This document shows, one piece after another, positions 1,074 through 46,978 of a DNA stretch of 46,978 nucleotides. A model generated the notes under the pieces. It searched no databases. It saw nothing but the letters and a program-made list of their open reading frames with translations, and was not told where the DNA came from. This DNA is from a virus. The stretch lies in the IMG/VR virus record IMGVR_UViG_3300048921_000571, positions 1-46,978 of that record. One strand, given 5' to 3'. Position 1 is the stretch's first letter. Each line of letters begins with the position of its first letter. The position numbers were made by a program, and so were the translations under genes.

Positions 1074-1476
1074 GGGGGTGCATTGGTTTCGACGGGGGTT
1101 GTGAAGTTACTTGGTGCATGCCGAGGGGGCAGCTTTCCTCGTTAATCCAGCAGCAAACTTTTAGTTGCCAACGACGACAACTACGGTTCGAACGACTTCG
1201 CAATCGCTGCCTAAAAACAGCTTTAGCGTTTAGTTCTACAGCCGCCTAAGGCGAACCCCCGAACCTACTTGTGCCCGTGCTCGTAGGTGTAGGGTCATTA
1301 TCACGGAACCGGTTGTGATGGCTGCCTGTCAGTCACGACTTAACTAAAGCAGGCTGGTCCTGGGGTGCGCTTTGCACACCGTGCTGCCACAGGATGAGAT
1401 CCAACGGTGAGCTAAGCATGTAGTACCGGGGATGGAGTGCCTTCGGACGGCGGTTCAATTCCGCCCACCTCCACCA
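1074..1476 (+). ncRNA. ssrA: tmRNA (SsrA)
   Basis: The 5' end GGGGGTG pairs with CACCTCC near the 3' end (one G-U), followed by A and CCA, giving a tRNA-like acceptor stem. The T-arm sequence GGTTCAATTCC is present close to the 3' end. The tag reading frame runs from the resume codon GCC at 1167 to TAA at 1212-1214 and encodes ANDDNYGSNDFAIAA, a typical proteobacterial tmRNA tag ending in AA. tmRNA rescues stalled ribosomes and marks the nascent peptide for proteolysis. Its 3' end is a frequent integrase target, and the integrase gene follows 160 bases downstream. Confidence 0.95.
1441..1476 (+). other. Probable attL core inside ssrA 3' end
   Basis: The tmRNA 3' end is intact and is directly followed by prophage-type sequence and an integrase gene. 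This is the usual arrangement when a phage integrates into the T-arm/acceptor part of ssrA and rebuilds it. The exact core cannot be set because the matching attR lies beyond the right end of the window. Confidence 0.5.
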
Positions 1477-1638: not shown

Positions 1639-2844
1639 ATGCCCCTGTCCGATGCCGCGATCCGTCGCGTAAAGGCCACCGAGAAGCAGCAGAAGCTGTC
1701 TGACGGTGGCGGCCTGTTCCTGTTGGTCCACCCGAATGGCTCCCGCTACTGGCGCTGGAAGTACCGCGTCAACGGCAAGGAGAAGCTGCTGGGCATGGGC
1801 ATCTATCCCGACGTCAGTCTGGCCAAGGCCAGAGAGGCAAGAGAGGACGCGCGTCGCCTGCTGGCCCGCGGCGTAGACCCGAGCGAACACCGCAAGGCCG
1901 CGACCGCCTCCCGTGCCGTAGCGGACGGCGAGAGCTTCGAGGTCATTACCCGGGAGTGGCTCGCTGGCCGCCCTTGGGTGCCGGCCTACGGCAAGAAGGT
2001 GATCGCCTGGTTCGAGAAGGACGTGTTCCCCTACATCGGCGCACGGCGCGCAGGGGACCTGAAGGCCTCGGACTTCCTGCAGGTCGCCCGGCGGATGGAG
2101 GCCAGGGCCGCTTTCGAATCAGCCCATCGGGTGATGCAGAACTGCGGACAGGTGATGCGGTACGCCGTGGCAACCGACCGTGCTGAGCGGAACCCTGTCG
2201 CTGACCTGCGCGGAGCGCTTGTGCCGGCTCCCGAGAAAAACCACGCCGCCATTGTGGACCCCGTCCAGCTGGGAGGGCTGCTGCGTGCCCTGCATGCCTA
2301 TCACGGCACACCCGTAGTCCAGGCGGCGCTAAAGCTGGCCCCGATGGTGTTCGTGCGGCCCGGCGAGCTTCGGCAGGCAGAATGGGCGGAGGTCGACCTA
2401 GACGCCGCAATCTGGAGCATTCCGGCCACGCGCATGAAGATGCGCCAAGCGCACATTGTTCCCCTCGCAAGGCAGGCGGTGGAGGTCCTCAGGCAGCTGC
2501 AGCCTGTGACCGGCCACGGCCAATACGTGTTCGCCGGCGGGCGCAGCGATAAACGGCCGATGTCGGAGGTCGCCGTGTTGGCGGCCCTGCGCGTCATGGG
2601 GTTCGACAAAGACACCGTCACCGGACATGGGTTCCGCGCCACCGCGCGCACCTTGTTGGATGAGGTACTTGGCGTCCGGCCGGACATCATCGAGCACCAG
2701 CTTGCACATGCAGTGAAGGATCCAAATGGGCGAGCGTACAACCGTACTTCGCACCTGCAAGAGAGGGTGCGGATGATGCAGATGTGGGCGGACTACCTGG
2801 ACAGGCTGCGGGACGGGAATTCGGTGCAGCTGCGGACCGACTGA
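1639..2844 (+). CDS. int: P4-type tyrosine integrase
   Basis: A 401-residue site-specific recombinase that inserts and excises the prophage at ssrA. The N-terminal arm-binding domain (about residues 1-90, with LSDGGGLFLLVHPNGSRYW) is typical of the P4/CP4-57 integrase family, which often uses tRNA and tmRNA targets. A core-binding domain spans about 95-190 and the catalytic domain about 200-375. Visible catalytic residues are Arg240 (VRPGELR), the HxxR pair His330/Arg333, His357 and the nucleophile Tyr367. Length is normal for the family. The ATG at 1639 has no Shine-Dalgarno and lies directly on the inverted repeat described above. The gene sits next to attL and points away from ssrA. Confidence 0.95.
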   Translation: MPLSDAAIRRVKATEKQQKLSDGGGLFLLVHPNGSRYWRWKYRVNGKEKLLGMGIYPDVSLAKAREAREDARRLLARGVDPSEHRKAATASRAVADGESFEVITREWLAGRPWVPAYGKKVIAWFEKDVFPYIGARRAGDLKASDFLQVARRMEARAAFESAHRVMQNCGQVMRYAVATDRAERNPVADLRGALVPAPEKNHAAIVDPVQLGGLLRALHAYHGTPVVQAALKLAPMVFVRPGELRQAEWAEVDLDAAIWSIPATRMKMRQAHIVPLARQAVEVLRQLQPVTGHGQYVFAGGRSDKRPMSEVAVLAALRVMGFDKDTVTGHGFRATARTLLDEVLGVRPDIIEHQLAHAVKDPNGRAYNRTSHLQERVRMMQMWADYLDRLRDGNSVQLRTD

Positions 2845-2885: not shown

Positions 2886-3572
2886 TCACTTATATTTCTT
2901 ATTATTATCCTCCGCTTTTGCGGAAAGCTCGTCATGCAAGTGCGCATCGTGGAGTTCAAATATTTGAATTGGCAGCAGAGCTGATCGGGCCAAACAAAGC
3001 ATCAAAAACCCAAGCAGCATGGCCAAATTCACAGAGTGCAAAAGCAGCGGCGCCCCCAAGAAATACACGATCAAGTAACTTATGCAAAGAACTGCACAAA
3101 TCATCGCAAATGCCAAAGTTACTGCCTGTGACACAAGCAGGTAGCGAAGTCGAGAACCATAACTACGAAGATCCTCAAAACTCAAACTCTGAACAGCTCC
3201 GAGGCGTCCAGTAAAAAGCATCAGCGTGACCAAAAACCCGACAAGCAAACCACAGAACGCAAGCACCCCGCCGAAAATTGCACCGAGAGCGCCTTCCGAA
3301 AGCTCAACAACGGCAGGGGATGCCAAAGCACCCGGAATTGCTCCAAGCGCAAAGATAAGCACAGAGAAAAGGCGGTTTCGGACCTTTTCCCTGCGATCAG
3401 GACTACGAAAACGCCCCATCTCTCCGGCCACATCACCCCAGGTAGCCCATTCGGATGGAAGTTGTTCGGCTAGGAAATTAGCCAACTTCTTGAATAATGA
3501 CCGGCGCGTCTGCATTGAAGAACCCGCCATCGTTGATAAGTCGCCACCTATTTCGCGTAATCCGAAGCTCAT
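2886..3572 (-). CDS. Four-helix membrane protein, RexB-like candidate
   Basis: A 228-residue membrane protein. Residues 1-65 are hydrophilic and basic. Four hydrophobic segments follow, at about 68-88, 94-118, 140-168 and 172-197, and the tail is charged (IFELHDAHLHDE onward). By eye the order of features resembles lambda RexB: a GALGAIFGGV-like segment, a loop with a SYGSRLRYL-like element, two more helices, then an acidic end. RexB is an ion channel opened by RexA during phage exclusion. The ATG at 3572 has GGAG eight bases upstream, so it is preferred; the reading frame then overlaps the upstream gene by 95 bases, which implies coupled translation. The region is visibly richer in A/T than the rest of the window. 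RexB homology is an inference, not a proven match. Confidence 0.65.
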   Translation of the reverse strand: MSFGLREIGGDLSTMAGSSMQTRRSLFKKLANFLAEQLPSEWATWGDVAGEMGRFRSPDRREKVRNRLFSVLIFALGAIPGALASPAVVELSEGALGAIFGGVLAFCGLLVGFLVTLMLFTGRLGAVQSLSFEDLRSYGSRLRYLLVSQAVTLAFAMICAVLCISYLIVYFLGAPLLLHSVNLAMLLGFLMLCLARSALLPIQIFELHDAHLHDELSAKAEDNNKKYK

Positions 3573-4494
3573 CCAAATAGCTCCACAGTCCTTCGATCAA
3601 CTCGCTGTAATGCAACAATCCGGCATTATCCATAGTAACATAAACTTGTGAGCGCGCCTTATAGCTGCCGAGACCCGTCAACTTATTGCCGTCATTTAGC
3701 TCCAGCGTAATTTTATCGAGCGCAGAATCTTCCTCCATCGAGTCATCAACTGCAGCGACGACATCATCGGTATTCAGAACCTCATCATCAGATGACTCCC
3801 ATATTCCAGCGAATTTCTGCGCATTCCGAAATCGCCCCTTCGAACTCTTAAGTGGTGCGGCCCAGCCGTCGTCACCCGGATCAGCCCCTTCCACCATGCG
3901 CAAAAATACCTTCTTTACTCCCCGCCCGCGCATGATGGCGGTGCGCAAATCTGCAGACGTGACATCAAGAAGTTCAAGCGTCGGGTGTTTCCTTCGTGTG
4001 TCTCCGTACGTAAGAAAATAGCTGAAGAGGCGACTTAGCAATTTTTGAACGCCGCCGACACCCCCACTACCCATGACATTCTCTACAATGAGGGTCTCGC
4101 CGAGCGCGACGCATCGACAAATGGTCACAATTTCTCGGACCTTTCCCTGGGCATCCCGTACGGGCTCCGTAGTGATGTCTGGCTCAGCAGCATTAAAGTC
4201 CAGCTCCATCTGATCTGGCGCATGACCATTTGTGTAGCTGCCAACCTCAAAATAGAGACCCTTCTCGTCTCCGTGGGGGCGGCTCGCTATGCGCCTTATG
4301 AAGGCACAAGCAACTCCAGGCTCTAAACGTCCACCATCAGGCACGACTGGCCAGTGCCGCTTGGACCACGTCGGCGCGGCCTGCTGCAGGCGCGTCAGCA
4401 GTTTCTCAATTGGCTCCGGTTGAAAATCCTTGTGCCGGCCGGCCTTAAAGCGAATCTTCTTTGCGTAGACGGTCTTGGCGATCTTTTTAGGCAC
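3478..4494 (-). CDS. Cytosolic partner protein, RexA-like candidate
   Basis: A 338-residue soluble protein without signal peptide or membrane segment, with a very basic N-terminus (PKKIAKTVYAKKIRFKAGRH). The middle part (CVALGETLIVENVMG, then PTLELLDVTSADLRTAIMRG followed by KKVFLRM) recalls by eye the central pattern of lambda RexA, in which a GDT-like turn precedes an LMRGTTKDD-like segment and a KVE-type strand. An acidic stretch (SSDDEVLNTDDVVAAVDDSMEED) lies at about 235-258. Translation starts at GTG 4494 behind AAGGA. It forms a two-gene unit with the overlapping membrane protein gene. KwaB of Kiwa is another possible comparison. Both would act as a sensor that triggers a membrane effector upon infection. 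Confidence 0.6.
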   Translation of the reverse strand: MPKKIAKTVYAKKIRFKAGRHKDFQPEPIEKLLTRLQQAAPTWSKRHWPVVPDGGRLEPGVACAFIRRIASRPHGDEKGLYFEVGSYTNGHAPDQMELDFNAAEPDITTEPVRDAQGKVREIVTICRCVALGETLIVENVMGSGGVGGVQKLLSRLFSYFLTYGDTRRKHPTLELLDVTSADLRTAIMRGRGVKKVFLRMVEGADPGDDGWAAPLKSSKGRFRNAQKFAGIWESSDDEVLNTDDVVAAVDDSMEEDSALDKITLELNDGNKLTGLGSYKARSQVYVTMDNAGLLHYSELIEGLWSYLDELRITRNRWRLINDGGFFNADAPVIIQEVG

Positions 4495-4590
4495 TGCATC
4501 CTTCCCCTGTGGTATAGCTCCGTGGGCGGGAGTATGCCAGAACAGAGGCGAAGCTAAGCCTGGATGGATTCCCCGCCCTTATCCACGCCT

Positions 4591-7106: not shown

Positions 7107-7604
7107 ATGGCGATCAAAACAGCAGAAGACCTTTTCATTCACGAGCTTTCGGACATCTACAGCGCCGAAAAGCAACTCACCAAGGCGCTCCCGCGCTTGG
7201 CGCGCGCGGCATCCGACCCTGATCTCTCAGCCGCGTTCGAGACCCACCTTGAGGAAACCCAAGGTCAAGTTGAGCGGATCGATCAAGTTGTGGAACTGCT
7301 TGGCATCCGTCTGAAGCGCATCAAATGCGCCGCGATGGAAGGCTTAATCGAGGAAGGCAAGGAAGCGATCGATGGTATCGAGGAAGGCCCCGTGCGTGAT
7401 GCGGCTCTCATCGGCGGTGCACAGAAGGTAGAGCATTACGAGATTGCCTCCTATGGCACCATTGCCGCGCTCGCCAAGCAGCTGGGCTACAAAGCGGCGC
7501 TTCCGCTGCTGATCGAAACGCTGGATGAGGAAAAGGCGACTGACGAGAAGCTGACAATTCTCGCCAAGGCGGGCGGCAACGCAAAGGCCGCACAGGCTGC
7601 ATAG
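7107..7604 (+). CDS. YciE/YciF ferritin-like family protein (DUF892)
   Basis: A 165-residue four-helix-bundle protein of the DUF892 family. The N-terminus (ELSDIYSAEKQLTKALPRLA) and the later KVEHYEIASYGTI are signatures; the Glu and His residues in these helices form the di-metal site of the fold. E. coli YciE and YciF belong to a stress-induced group. The start ATG has AGGAG in front. A strong terminator follows at 7649. In a phage this is cargo, probably helping the lysogen against oxidative or osmotic stress (inference). Confidence 0.9.
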   Translation: MAIKTAEDLFIHELSDIYSAEKQLTKALPRLARAASDPDLSAAFETHLEETQGQVERIDQVVELLGIRLKRIKCAAMEGLIEEGKEAIDGIEEGPVRDAALIGGAQKVEHYEIASYGTIAALAKQLGYKAALPLLIETLDEEKATDEKLTILAKAGGNAKAAQAA

Positions 7605-7648
7605 GTTGAAGGTGAGTCACTGACATCTATGGTTGCAACCATCGCACT

Positions 7649-7678
7649 AGGAGCGGCATTCCGTGCCGCTCCTTTTTC
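7649..7678 (+). terminator. Intrinsic terminator after the DUF892 gene
   Basis: AGGAGCGGCA at 7649-7658 pairs perfectly with TGCCGCTCCT at 7664-7673, with five loop bases and a T run after it. It ends the transcript of the first two cargo genes. Confidence 0.85.
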
Positions 7679-7735
7679 TAGCGCCGAGCGCGCGGCCGCT
7701 TAGAGGAGTGGCTGCGTAAACGAGGTCTGACGGGT

Positions 7736-8374
7736 ATGTGGCGGAGAAACGGACTATCAATCGTACTTTTCCTGCTGCTCGCATGCTTTTTGATTGGCCA
7801 GATCTGGACGGGATTTCTCACGCATAACGAAGAGCTGGCAGAAGCAGGCAGGGGCACCCTGGGTCTCTGGGATTACCTGCACAGCGGCCATTTCGTCAGT
7901 GCCACGTTCGAGAACTGGGAGAGCGAGTTCCTTCAGATGGGCATGTATGTGCTGCTTACGGTCAGCTTGAGGCAGAAGGGTTCGGCAGAATCCAGGCCGA
8001 TGAATCCTGCAGATGAACAGGAGCGTATTGAGCCTGGCCCTGAGCCTTGGGCATTGCGTAAAGGCGGGCTTTGGAAGCTTCTTTACGGTCACTCCCTGGC
8101 GATCGCGTTTGCGGGCCTCTTCTTCATCAGCTTCTGCCTGCACCTGGCAGGCAGCTGGCAGGCGGAGGTGGATGAGCAGATTGCGCATGGCGTCGCGCCA
8201 CCCACGTGGTGGGAGCACCTGCACTCCAGCAGCTTCTGGTTCGAGTCCTTCCAGAACTGGCAGAGCGAGTTCCTGGCGGTGCTGGCCTTGGTGATTCTCA
8301 CCATCTTCCTCCGCCAAAAGGATTCCCCTCAATCGAAGCCGCTCGCTGCCCCACACAGTCAGACCGGCGATTAA
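7736..8374 (+). CDS. DUF6766-type membrane protein
   Basis: A 212-residue membrane protein with an internal duplication: each half has hydrophobic segments and a conserved block, HSGHFVSATFENWESEFLQM in the first and HSSSFWFESFQNWQSEFLAV in the second, followed by a helix ending LRQK. There are four membrane segments, at about 6-22, 65-80, 116-138 and 182-196. This is the pattern of the DUF6766 family, which has no known biochemical role. It follows a terminator, so it must have its own promoter, and it is 15 bases upstream of the hydrolase gene with which it is probably cotranscribed. Confidence 0.8.
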   Translation: MWRRNGLSIVLFLLLACFLIGQIWTGFLTHNEELAEAGRGTLGLWDYLHSGHFVSATFENWESEFLQMGMYVLLTVSLRQKGSAESRPMNPADEQERIEPGPEPWALRKGGLWKLLYGHSLAIAFAGLFFISFCLHLAGSWQAEVDEQIAHGVAPPTWWEHLHSSSFWFESFQNWQSEFLAVLALVILTIFLRQKDSPQSKPLAAPHSQTGD

Positions 8375-8389
8375 CCAACCTGCCAACAC

Positions 8390-8938
8390 ATGAAGAAGAG
8401 AACACCGGCACTCCTCATCGTGGACATGTTCACCCGTTTCGATTTCCCGAACGCAAAGGGTCTCGAACCGGCCGCCGTACGGGCAGCAAGCCAGATCGCG
8501 CGTCTCAGCCAGTATTTTCGTGCACGTAGTCTTCCCGTCATCTATGCCAATGACAACTTTGCTGACTGGCAAATGGACTTTCGAGACCTGGTTCGCGTGT
8601 GCGCGGCAACTGAGGGTGCGGCCTCCACGATCACAGAGAAGCTGCGGCCTCATACCGGCGACTACTTCATTCTCAAGCCAAAGCACTCTGCCTTCCTGGC
8701 GACCCCGCTTGCAATTCTCTTGGCCAAACTCGGCACGAACGAGCTCGTGGTCTGCGGAATGACTACCGAGTCATGCATAGCTGCCACATGCTTTGACAGC
8801 AATGCTCGCGAATATGACACCGTGGTTATCCGCGAGACGGTTGCCTCGATGGGTTTACGAAAGGAGACTGCGCTCCGTCTCTTGCAGGATTCCAAAGCAG
8901 CACGAGTACTCACGCTCAGGAGCTATCTATCTCGCTGA
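8390..8938 (+). CDS. Cysteine hydrolase, isochorismatase family
   Basis: A 182-residue enzyme of the isochorismatase-like hydrolase fold. The catalytic triad is visible: Asp12 (LLIVDMF), Lys98 (LKPKHSAF) and Cys129 (MTTESCIAAT). The family hydrolyses amides or related bonds; the substrate cannot be told. No strong ribosome site is seen before ATG 8390, so it may be coupled to the DUF6766 gene ending 15 bases upstream. Cargo of the prophage, not a phage growth gene. Confidence 0.9.
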   Translation: MKKRTPALLIVDMFTRFDFPNAKGLEPAAVRAASQIARLSQYFRARSLPVIYANDNFADWQMDFRDLVRVCAATEGAASTITEKLRPHTGDYFILKPKHSAFLATPLAILLAKLGTNELVVCGMTTESCIAATCFDSNAREYDTVVIRETVASMGLRKETALRLLQDSKAARVLTLRSYLSR

Positions 8939-39519: not shown

Positions 39520-39975
39520 TCAGGCCACCTGCACTTGGATGACGCGCTCGGCGTCGGGATCGATTTGGGCGGCCTCGGCCGCCGGTTGTTCGGCCTGGAC
39601 ACCGAGCAGCTTCATCACCTGCGGGAGGGCCGGAACGCCCTGCTCTTCCGGCCAGGCCTCGACCTGCTCCACCGGGAGCTGAAGCACCTTCGCCAGGTGC
39701 GCATCGGTCTTGAAACCGAACTTGGCCCGCAGCGCGCGTTTGCTCATCCGGCTGTCGACCAACGGTCCGATCACAGCGCGCGGGCTCGCGATAGCCACCA
39801 GCGGCTCGGCATCGACCATCCGGGCTAGCCGGAACGCTGCGTCGGCTCTCGGCGCCTTAGTACGCCCAGCGATGATTTCGCGGACTGCATTGGGCGTAAC
39901 ACCCATCCCGGCCGCAATCGAATCAACGGTTGCGCCGGCACCGATCAAACCTTGAATTTGAGATTTCCAGTCCAT
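39520..39975 (-). CDS. cro: Cro-like transcriptional regulator
   Basis: A 151-residue protein with an N-terminal helix-turn-helix (GATVDSIAAGMGVTPNAVRE) and a helical C-terminal part. It is the first gene of the PR operon and divergent from the repressor, the position of cro. PR has its -10 only eight bases before the ATG, so the mRNA would have almost no leader. It is larger than lambda Cro (66 residues). Confidence 0.75.
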   Translation of the reverse strand: MDWKSQIQGLIGAGATVDSIAAGMGVTPNAVREIIAGRTKAPRADAAFRLARMVDAEPLVAIASPRAVIGPLVDSRMSKRALRAKFGFKTDAHLAKVLQLPVEQVEAWPEEQGVPALPQVMKLLGVQAEQPAAEAAQIDPDAERVIQVQVA

Positions 39976-39983
39976 GTATAGGA

Positions 39984-40036
39984 AAGCTACAGAATCCTGT
40001 AGGTCTAGTCAACAGCATTCTGTTACAGAGTTCTGT
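39984..40036 (-). promoter_or_regulatory. PR promoter with three-site operator OR
   Basis: Minus strand: TTGACT (complement at 40007-40012), 17 bases, TAGCTT (complement at 39984-39989). Three operators fit ACAG-N4-CTGT: 39989-40000, 40012-40023 and 40025-40036. The first fills the spacer of PR and the second touches its -35. Centres are 23 and 13 bases apart. This matches lambda OR in design. Confidence 0.85.
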
Positions 40037-40048
40037 GACCATTTCCCG

Positions 40049-40729
40049 ATGGAAACCATCGGCACCCGCGTTCGTCGTGAGCGCGAATCACAAGGCATTG
40101 AGCGGCGCGAGCTGGCCTCAAAGACCGGTATCGGCTACAGCACGCTGTCCGAGCTGGAACGCGGGGGTATGCAGACCACCACGAAGCTGCGCGTCATCGC
40201 CGACGCGCTGGGCGTCTCCCAGCGCTGGCTGGAAACCGGCAAAGGTCCGAAGACGGCGCGGGGAGAGGCCCCGGTCTCAGCCGTCTTAGCGATTGAGACC
40301 AGCCCCGACTATGTTCGCGTCCAACAACTGGATGGAGACGCAGACATGGGGGATGGACGCATCAATGAGGACTTCCCGGACATTGTCCGAGGCATGGATT
40401 TTGCCCCCACCTACATCCGTTCCGTGGTTGGATTCGTGCCGCCACCAGGCCGCCTTGTGCTGGTCACCGGCCGCGGCGATTCCATGATCCCTGTCATCAA
40501 CCCAGGTGAGTCTCTGATGGTGGATACGGGAGTGGAGTCCTTTGACGGTGACGGCATCTATCTGCTCAACACGGGCAATGGCCAGCAAATCAAGGGACTG
40601 CAGGATCGTGGCGACGCGATCTACGTGGTGAGTGCGAATGCTGCCCTGTATCCCGCGTTTCCCATGCCCAAAGGAACGCTGATCGGCGGAAAGGTCTACC
40701 TGCGCAACAGGATCGATCGATTTAATTGA
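40049..40729 (+). CDS. cI: CI-type repressor with S24 domain
   Basis: A 226-residue lysogeny repressor. The HTH domain covers about 5-62 (ELASKTGIGYSTLSELERGG). The LexA/S24 domain has Ser145 (RGDSM) and Lys182 (QQIKGL), 37 residues apart as in LexA. No Ala-Gly or Cys-Gly pair is present where cleavage normally occurs, about 30-35 residues before the Ser. No Shine-Dalgarno precedes ATG 40049, so translation may be leaderless as for lambda cI from PRM. It should bind the five ACAG-N4-CTGT operators. Confidence 0.9.
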   Translation: METIGTRVRRERESQGIERRELASKTGIGYSTLSELERGGMQTTTKLRVIADALGVSQRWLETGKGPKTARGEAPVSAVLAIETSPDYVRVQQLDGDADMGDGRINEDFPDIVRGMDFAPTYIRSVVGFVPPPGRLVLVTGRGDSMIPVINPGESLMVDTGVESFDGDGIYLLNTGNGQQIKGLQDRGDAIYVVSANAALYPAFPMPKGTLIGGKVYLRNRIDRFN

Positions 40730-46376: not shown

Positions 46377-46706
46377 ATGACCCAGCGACACATCAGCCAC
46401 CCCGAAGGGCTGCCGGCCTGCGCCGCCGGACACAGCGCGCGCCACATCCTCGACCTGCGCGGCCTGACCGCCGGCGGCGGCCACCTCGTCGAGTGCCGTT
46501 GCAGGGCGACCAGCAAGCACGCAGAGCCCGAGGCAGCCCTGGCGGAATGGCGGCGCATCAATCGCCCCGCCCGCAGCGCGCGCAAGGTGCTGCCCTCGAT
46601 CGCGGCGCCACACAACGTCGTACAGATGCGGCTGCCGGGGCTGGCCGCGCAGACCCCATTTTCTAAAACGAAACAGCCGCGAGCTGCGGCGAAGGAGGCA
46701 TCATGA
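46377..46706 (+). CDS. Hypothetical phage protein upstream of alpA
   Basis: A 109-residue protein with Cys/His residues (LPACAAGHSARH, VECRCRATSKHAE) and a helical end. AGGAG precedes ATG 46377. Stop overlaps the AlpA start. Similar small proteins with HxxE/C spacing occur in phage early regions; role unknown. Confidence 0.65.
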   Translation: MTQRHISHPEGLPACAAGHSARHILDLRGLTAGGGHLVECRCRATSKHAEPEAALAEWRRINRPARSARKVLPSIAAPHNVVQMRLPGLAAQTPFSKTKQPRAAAKEAS

Positions 46707-46978
46707 CCGCTGACCAGCCGCCCATCATCCCGCGCCGCCTGCTCCGCAGAAGCGAGGTCCAGGACCGGGTGGGCCTGGGCAAGTCGACCCTGTATTCGCG
46801 CATTTCGGCCGGATCCTTCCCGAAACCGGTGACTTTGGGCAGCTCGGTTCGCTGGGTGGAATCCGAGGTCGAGGCGTGGATTTCGGAGCGGGTTTCGGAG
46901 CGGGACCATGCAGCGGGAAACGGGGGTACATCTGGGGGTACGGGGACAGAGGAAGGCACGCCACCCCTTGCGGCATAA
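46703..46978 (+). CDS. AlpA-type regulator, excisionase candidate
   Basis: A 91-residue protein: RRSEVQDRVGLGKSTLYSRI is the AlpA/excisionase-type winged helix, and LGSSVRWVESEVEAWISERV its second half. AlpA proteins activate excision or transcription of P4-type integrases. The tail after residue 65 is Gly/Thr/Glu-rich and carries the arm-type repeat in its DNA. The gene ends at the window's last base; attR should follow. Confidence 0.85.
   Translation: MTADQPPIIPRRLLRRSEVQDRVGLGKSTLYSRISAGSFPKPVTLGSSVRWVESEVEAWISERVSERDHAAGNGGTSGGTGTEEGTPPLAA
46922..46941 (+). repeat. Integrase arm-type site candidate, right end
   Basis: GGGGGTACATCTGGGGGTAC, 18 of 20 identical to 1591-1610 at the other prophage end. 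It lies inside the 3' part of alpA. Confidence 0.6.

Follow-up and report, generated by a model that had tools for sequence, protein, structure and literature searches.

The analysis of the window, the whole stretch of 46,978 nucleotides of viral DNA considered here, identified a pair of overlapping genes, A and B, best read as a new and sequence-divergent branch of RexAB systems that has a putative role in defence. The pair is likely to represent a divergent exclusion module of the RexAB type that rides as cargo at a prophage end; in it, A would sense infection and activate B, and membrane damage would abort the infection. Rex was the first phage-exclusion system to be seen and, to our knowledge, its trigger is still not known. 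Only five RexAB-like systems have been described (PMC12894663, 2026), and the pair adds a family of at least 17 pairs that was overlooked by defence and protein-family libraries. A system of the RexAB kind is taken here to consist of a soluble A followed by a four-transmembrane (4-TM) B, where A has the RexA fold, is a dimer and binds DNA without sequence specificity, B has both ends in the cytoplasm (N-in/C-in), and the two together bring about exclusion. The features concerned are as follows.

1074-1476, plus strand: tmRNA gene at the left end of the window, the probable attachment gene (ARAGORN)
1639-2844, plus strand: tyrosine integrase gene int, convergent with the pair (Pfam Arm-DNA-bind_3, Phage_int_M, Phage_integrase)
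2886-3530, minus strand: gene B, 214 aa, 4 TM, predicted membrane effector (open reading frame, alignments and topology)
3478-3530, minus strand: overlap of the end of A and the start of B, with translational coupling probable (open reading frame positions)
3478-4494, minus strand: gene A, 338 aa, soluble, predicted infection sensor and DNA-binding activator of B (open reading frame)
4495-4507, minus strand: ribosome-binding site of A, GGGGAAGGATGCA-GTG (sequence)
39974-40729, plus strand: CI-like repressor, helix-turn-helix and S24 peptidase (Pfam)

Both reading frames are present, with four hydrophobic segments in B and none in A, in agreement with an earlier note on this DNA that described a soluble protein of 338 residues overlapping a four-helix membrane protein. 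The start codon of A is GTG and is preceded by a good GGGGAAGGAT ribosome site. The length of 228 residues given in that note for the membrane protein holds for the open reading frame, which opens at 3572 (2886-3572, minus strand), but not for the conserved part, which in the alignment with relatives runs from the methionine at 3530 or 3515 and comprises 209-214 residues; judged from the sequence, the true start of B is probably one of these two. The start of B lies within the end of A, in an overlap of about 40-50 bases that is a probable sign of translational coupling, and in the relatives A and B likewise overlap or nearly abut. The note also correctly placed the pair right behind int and in A/T-richer DNA: the GC content is 53% for A and 50% for B against 66% for int and 67% for the tail gene J, and GC3 is 0.56 and 0.49 against 0.81 and 0.88, a comparison that gives the pair an AT-rich cargo signature.

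Sixteen more full pairs were recovered by whole-genome and virus searches and in all of them, as in the window, a soluble gene is followed by a co-directional 4-TM gene; the A proteins of these relatives are 22-68% identical to that of the window. A search with A in 397 genomes of the Stenotrophomonas family returned eight convincing homologues, each with a 4-TM B directly downstream, scanning viruses with the alignment of B gave six more loci, with a full A in five and a shortened A in the sixth (L047), and one and two further pairs came from searches at class and order level, respectively. The family, at least 17 pairs including that of the window, is found mostly in Xanthomonadaceae and their phages, and no A without B was found among the relatives. 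There were no matches in 120 genomes of the Paraburkholderia family or in 399 genomes drawn across the phylum, empty answers that are weak evidence, and three genome matches (G204, G081 and G1426) were weak and were dropped as probable chance. At L047 (5702-6588) B is intact and A is only a 125-residue piece, so that a full A may not be required for B to be tolerated, or used.

Within the family, the distance matrices of A and B are closely correlated (r = 0.95, 0 of 2000 permutations), partly through shared descent. Comparison of the close pair L034/L035 gave a dN of 0.03 and a dS of 0.84 for gene A and a dN of 0.064 and a dS of 1.73 for gene B, a dN/dS of about 0.04 for both alike, and both genes are under purifying selection. 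This ratio, and the 16 further homologous pairs with their order kept, indicate that the pair is real beyond chance. In the closest relatives, L043 and L044, the alignment to the window is limited to the pair; the nucleotide match of L044 covers window positions 2926-4509 and thus begins and stops with the pair. Given that the flanks of these nearest relatives are unmatched and the pair is matched, it follows that the pair moves as a unit. The settings of the relatives are siphophage-like, Mu-like and others, with a terminase (L034), Mu gp27 (L045 and L046), an integrase (L048) and a minor tail protein (L047) as phage neighbours. The conserved pairing, the alignment of the pair only and the purifying selection together define a conserved, mobile and selected two-gene module.

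The host prophage is of the lambdoid siphophage type, in a Stenotrophomonas-like bacterium. The stretch from the tmRNA gene to int is also present in Stenotrophomonas loci and the closest relative of the integrase, 90% identical, is from Stenotrophomonas rhizophila (L002). This locus aligns with the window at 1055-2802 and from 9550 on, with nothing aligned between, and the pair therefore lies within an exchangeable cargo segment. Terminase, portal, tape measure and tail protein J are all encoded on the minus strand, which places the pair beyond the last late genes and convergent with int. In integrated order the CI-like repressor is about 35 kb from the pair, which does not share the immunity-region layout of lambda Rex, with its genes directly behind CI. 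The earlier note regarded the slot next to the integrase as a usual place for exclusion genes; this position is not typical of the family, in which only the window and L048 show it. Directly behind a related int in Xanthomonas arboricola (L007, 9294-11005) there is a Macro-domain and DarT pair of the DarTG type, and an int-adjacent slot can therefore carry defence cargo.

Sequence searches of A and B against Pfam, PHROGs, NCBIfam, PADLOC and the PDB matched no family. SLATT was rejected as a family for B, at an E-value of 0.14 that is below the cut-off, as were single stray Pfam matches in relatives, which were below the cut-off and unshared. Single-protein pattern scans of virus and genome collections and tblastn against phages and plasmids gave no relatives of the pair, which were recovered only by the whole-genome search and the B alignment. 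The Pfam models for RexA (PF15969) and RexB (PF15968) and the PADLOC models for RexA and RexB matched neither the window proteins nor their relatives, while the lambda controls matched; the verified CarolAnn and Butters pairs were also missed by PADLOC. DUF4747, reported as weakly present in RexA-like proteins, was found in none of 143 genomes and was also absent from the controls, and is unusable. The order of motifs in which the earlier note recognised RexA and RexB by eye was not measurable, and the profile-profile check that it proposed, extended here to the CarolAnn and Butters proteins, gave nothing above reversed controls for either A or B. In the same comparison the known Rex systems give no signal with one another either.

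The structure prediction also proposed in that note was run on A. A single-sequence AlphaFold model was useless; the AlphaFold2 model from a 17-sequence alignment has a pLDDT of 84 and a pTM of 0.82. Its top Foldseek match among 350,542 PDB chains is lambda RexA (8TWQ; E 1.6e-4, probability 1.00), over 327 alignment columns and near full length, and no other PDB match falls below E 0.001. Ranks two to four are weak matches (E about 0.05-0.09) to CCAN chains N, that is CENP-N, which we take to be the human counterpart of Chl4. Against viral models, four unnamed phage proteins rank first (E 5e-13 to 2e-7), followed by a weak match to phage RdgC (E 0.01). The published structural relatives of RexA are RdgC and the kinetochore proteins IML3/CHL4 (PMC11077077), and a chance match is unlikely because the CENP-N and RdgC matches agree with these. 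When superposed globally, the A model and 8TWQ give TM-scores of only 0.32/0.37 and an rmsd of 16.8 A. Given that RexA consists of two hinge-joined domains, for which closed and open forms have been proposed (PMC11077077), the low score of the model is attributed to a differing domain angle. On the global match, A is thus predicted to have the RexA fold, which comprises a split globular domain and a dimerisation domain. The four uncharacterised phage proteins that match the fold of A better than RexA does (A0A8S5S8L2, A0A8S5MSR5, A0A8S5QGP5 and A0A8S5PCY0) may be further Rex-like sensors.

The topology of the B proteins (n=18), RexB, CarolAnn gp43 and Butters gp31 was predicted from hydropathy and positive-inside counts. 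In all full B proteins, that of the window included, the predicted plan is N-in/C-in with four helices: a positively charged N-terminal region, a short outer loop, a cytoplasmic central loop of 24-39 residues with 2-5 Lys/Arg, a second short outer loop and a charged tail. This plan, at similar lengths, is also that of CarolAnn gp43 and Butters gp31, and RexB is a shorter form of it. In the conserved sequence of B, GF(L/M)VTLMLFTG ... R...P.QI.E.H, the invariant residues cluster at three places: helix 2 (GF..T.M.FTG), the beginning of helix 3 and the end of helix 4 (R...P.QI.E.H). Sequence profiles gave no link between B and RexB. The suggestion in the earlier note of a distant branch of Rex is consequently supported for A by the fold and for B by predicted topology only. 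The alignment, with clear invariant residues in A and B, makes a putative sensor groove in A and a putative pore in B accessible to mutation.

Comparison with known systems indicates where the likeness lies. Lambda RexA/RexB share with the pair the order A then B, the soluble and 4-TM N-in/C-in proteins, the role of prophage cargo and, over the length of A, the predicted RexA fold. However, the family proteins are larger, at 311-352 aa for A against 279 for RexA and about 200-219 aa for B against 144 for RexB, the N-terminus and central loop of B being longer, lambda Rex lies behind CI, where the pair does not, and sequence similarity is undetectable. RexABpp of Pseudomonas putida prophage P1 (PP_5643/PP_5644) is, by description, likewise a prophage two-gene system of a RexA-like soluble and a 4-TM protein, but is near a CI-like repressor; it was unrecognised by BLAST, needs both genes and damages membranes (PMC12894663). 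The actinophage pairs CarolAnn gp44/gp43 and Sbash gp30/gp31 also have adjacent A and B genes and a 4-TM B, although their hosts are actinobacterial. For CarolAnn the gene order and overlap are as in the pair, A is about 370 aa and the central cytoplasmic loop of gp43 is about 30 residues, yet there is no profile similarity to the window family. Butters gp30/gp31 resembles the pair in layout and follows the lysis genes instead of adjoining the repressor; as with Sbash, the position is not directly behind CI. The Butters proteins have no sequence similarity to the family.

A further possibility is that DNA sensors of the RexA fold belong to a broad superfamily in which unrelated four-helix membrane effectors have been gained repeatedly, and that B is not a descendant of RexB. 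This is a tentative possibility that we consider somewhat doubtful; if true, the B family, marked by the invariant GF-TLMLFTG helix and the R-P-QI-E-H motif, would be a separately recruited effector.

For a RexAB-type module, the mechanism would be as follows. A and B would be made in the lysogen from one coupled transcript, A being a RexA-fold protein that is probably a dimer and would bind DNA. Infection by another phage would switch A, the cue by analogy being either a phage protein or an intermediate of replication or recombination, and the switched A would activate B, presumably by contact. B, a four-helix inner-membrane protein, would then permeabilise or depolarise the membrane, so that growth stops and the infection is aborted. 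The roles of sensor and effector are assigned by analogy with published Rex-type pairs, in which mostly both genes are needed, RexB-like proteins are membrane effectors and RexA-like proteins are triggers, with Butters as an exception in which the roles are reversed (PMC12894663). Given that the gene order and B topology of Butters gp30/gp31 match those of the pair, it is conceivable that A is instead the toxic or antiviral effector and that B only anchors it to the membrane and keeps it in check until infection sets it free, as Butters A is reported to be the effector and its B the brake. This is unlikely for two reasons: first, B is the effector in the lambda, CarolAnn, Sbash and P. putida pairs. 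Second, the greatest invariance in B is seen in a membrane helix, GF..TLMLFTG, which would be expected of a protein whose membrane part is the active one.

A role outside defence, with A as an RdgC/RexA-like regulator of lysis-lysogeny or recombination and B as an accessory lysis or superinfection-exclusion protein, would be in keeping with the bias that lambda RexA exerts on the CI/Cro switch and its resemblance to RdgC (PMC11077077), and with the location of several relatives close to the lysis or packaging genes of Mu-like phages. It is nevertheless quite improbable, in view of the carriage of the pair by unrelated phages with unshared flanks, the strict pairing and the AT-rich cargo signature. 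A Kiwa-like system, also suggested in the earlier note, in which B would sense attack at the membrane and A would bind incoming DNA and block replication or late transcription (mechanism: PMC12904381), likewise joins a 4-TM protein to a soluble one that probably binds DNA, but is highly improbable, as Pfam (KwaB domain PF16162) and PADLOC gave no KwaA or KwaB match, profiles show no similarity to a Kiwa pair, the gene order in Kiwa (L074) is the opposite, membrane then soluble, and the fold match of A is RexA. The search of the PDB set used gave no KwaB homologue, and Kiwa is thus rejected by models, profiles and gene order, not by fold.

Returning to the prophage that carries the RexAB-type pair, window positions 7107-8938, which lie between the tail genes and the pair, have three plus-strand genes that resemble stress cargo of host type; their products are a membrane protein, a DUF892 protein and a member of the isochorismatase family. 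The record contains only two copies of an imperfect repeat of 20 bases, GGGGGTAyATCTrGGGGTAC, one by the start of int (1591-1610) and one at the far right end (46922-46941), which are possibly arm-type integrase sites or att-related. At the right end of the record (46704-46976) there is a short protein that by eye is like AlpA-type helix-turn-helix regulators, which suggests that the prophage is nearly complete.
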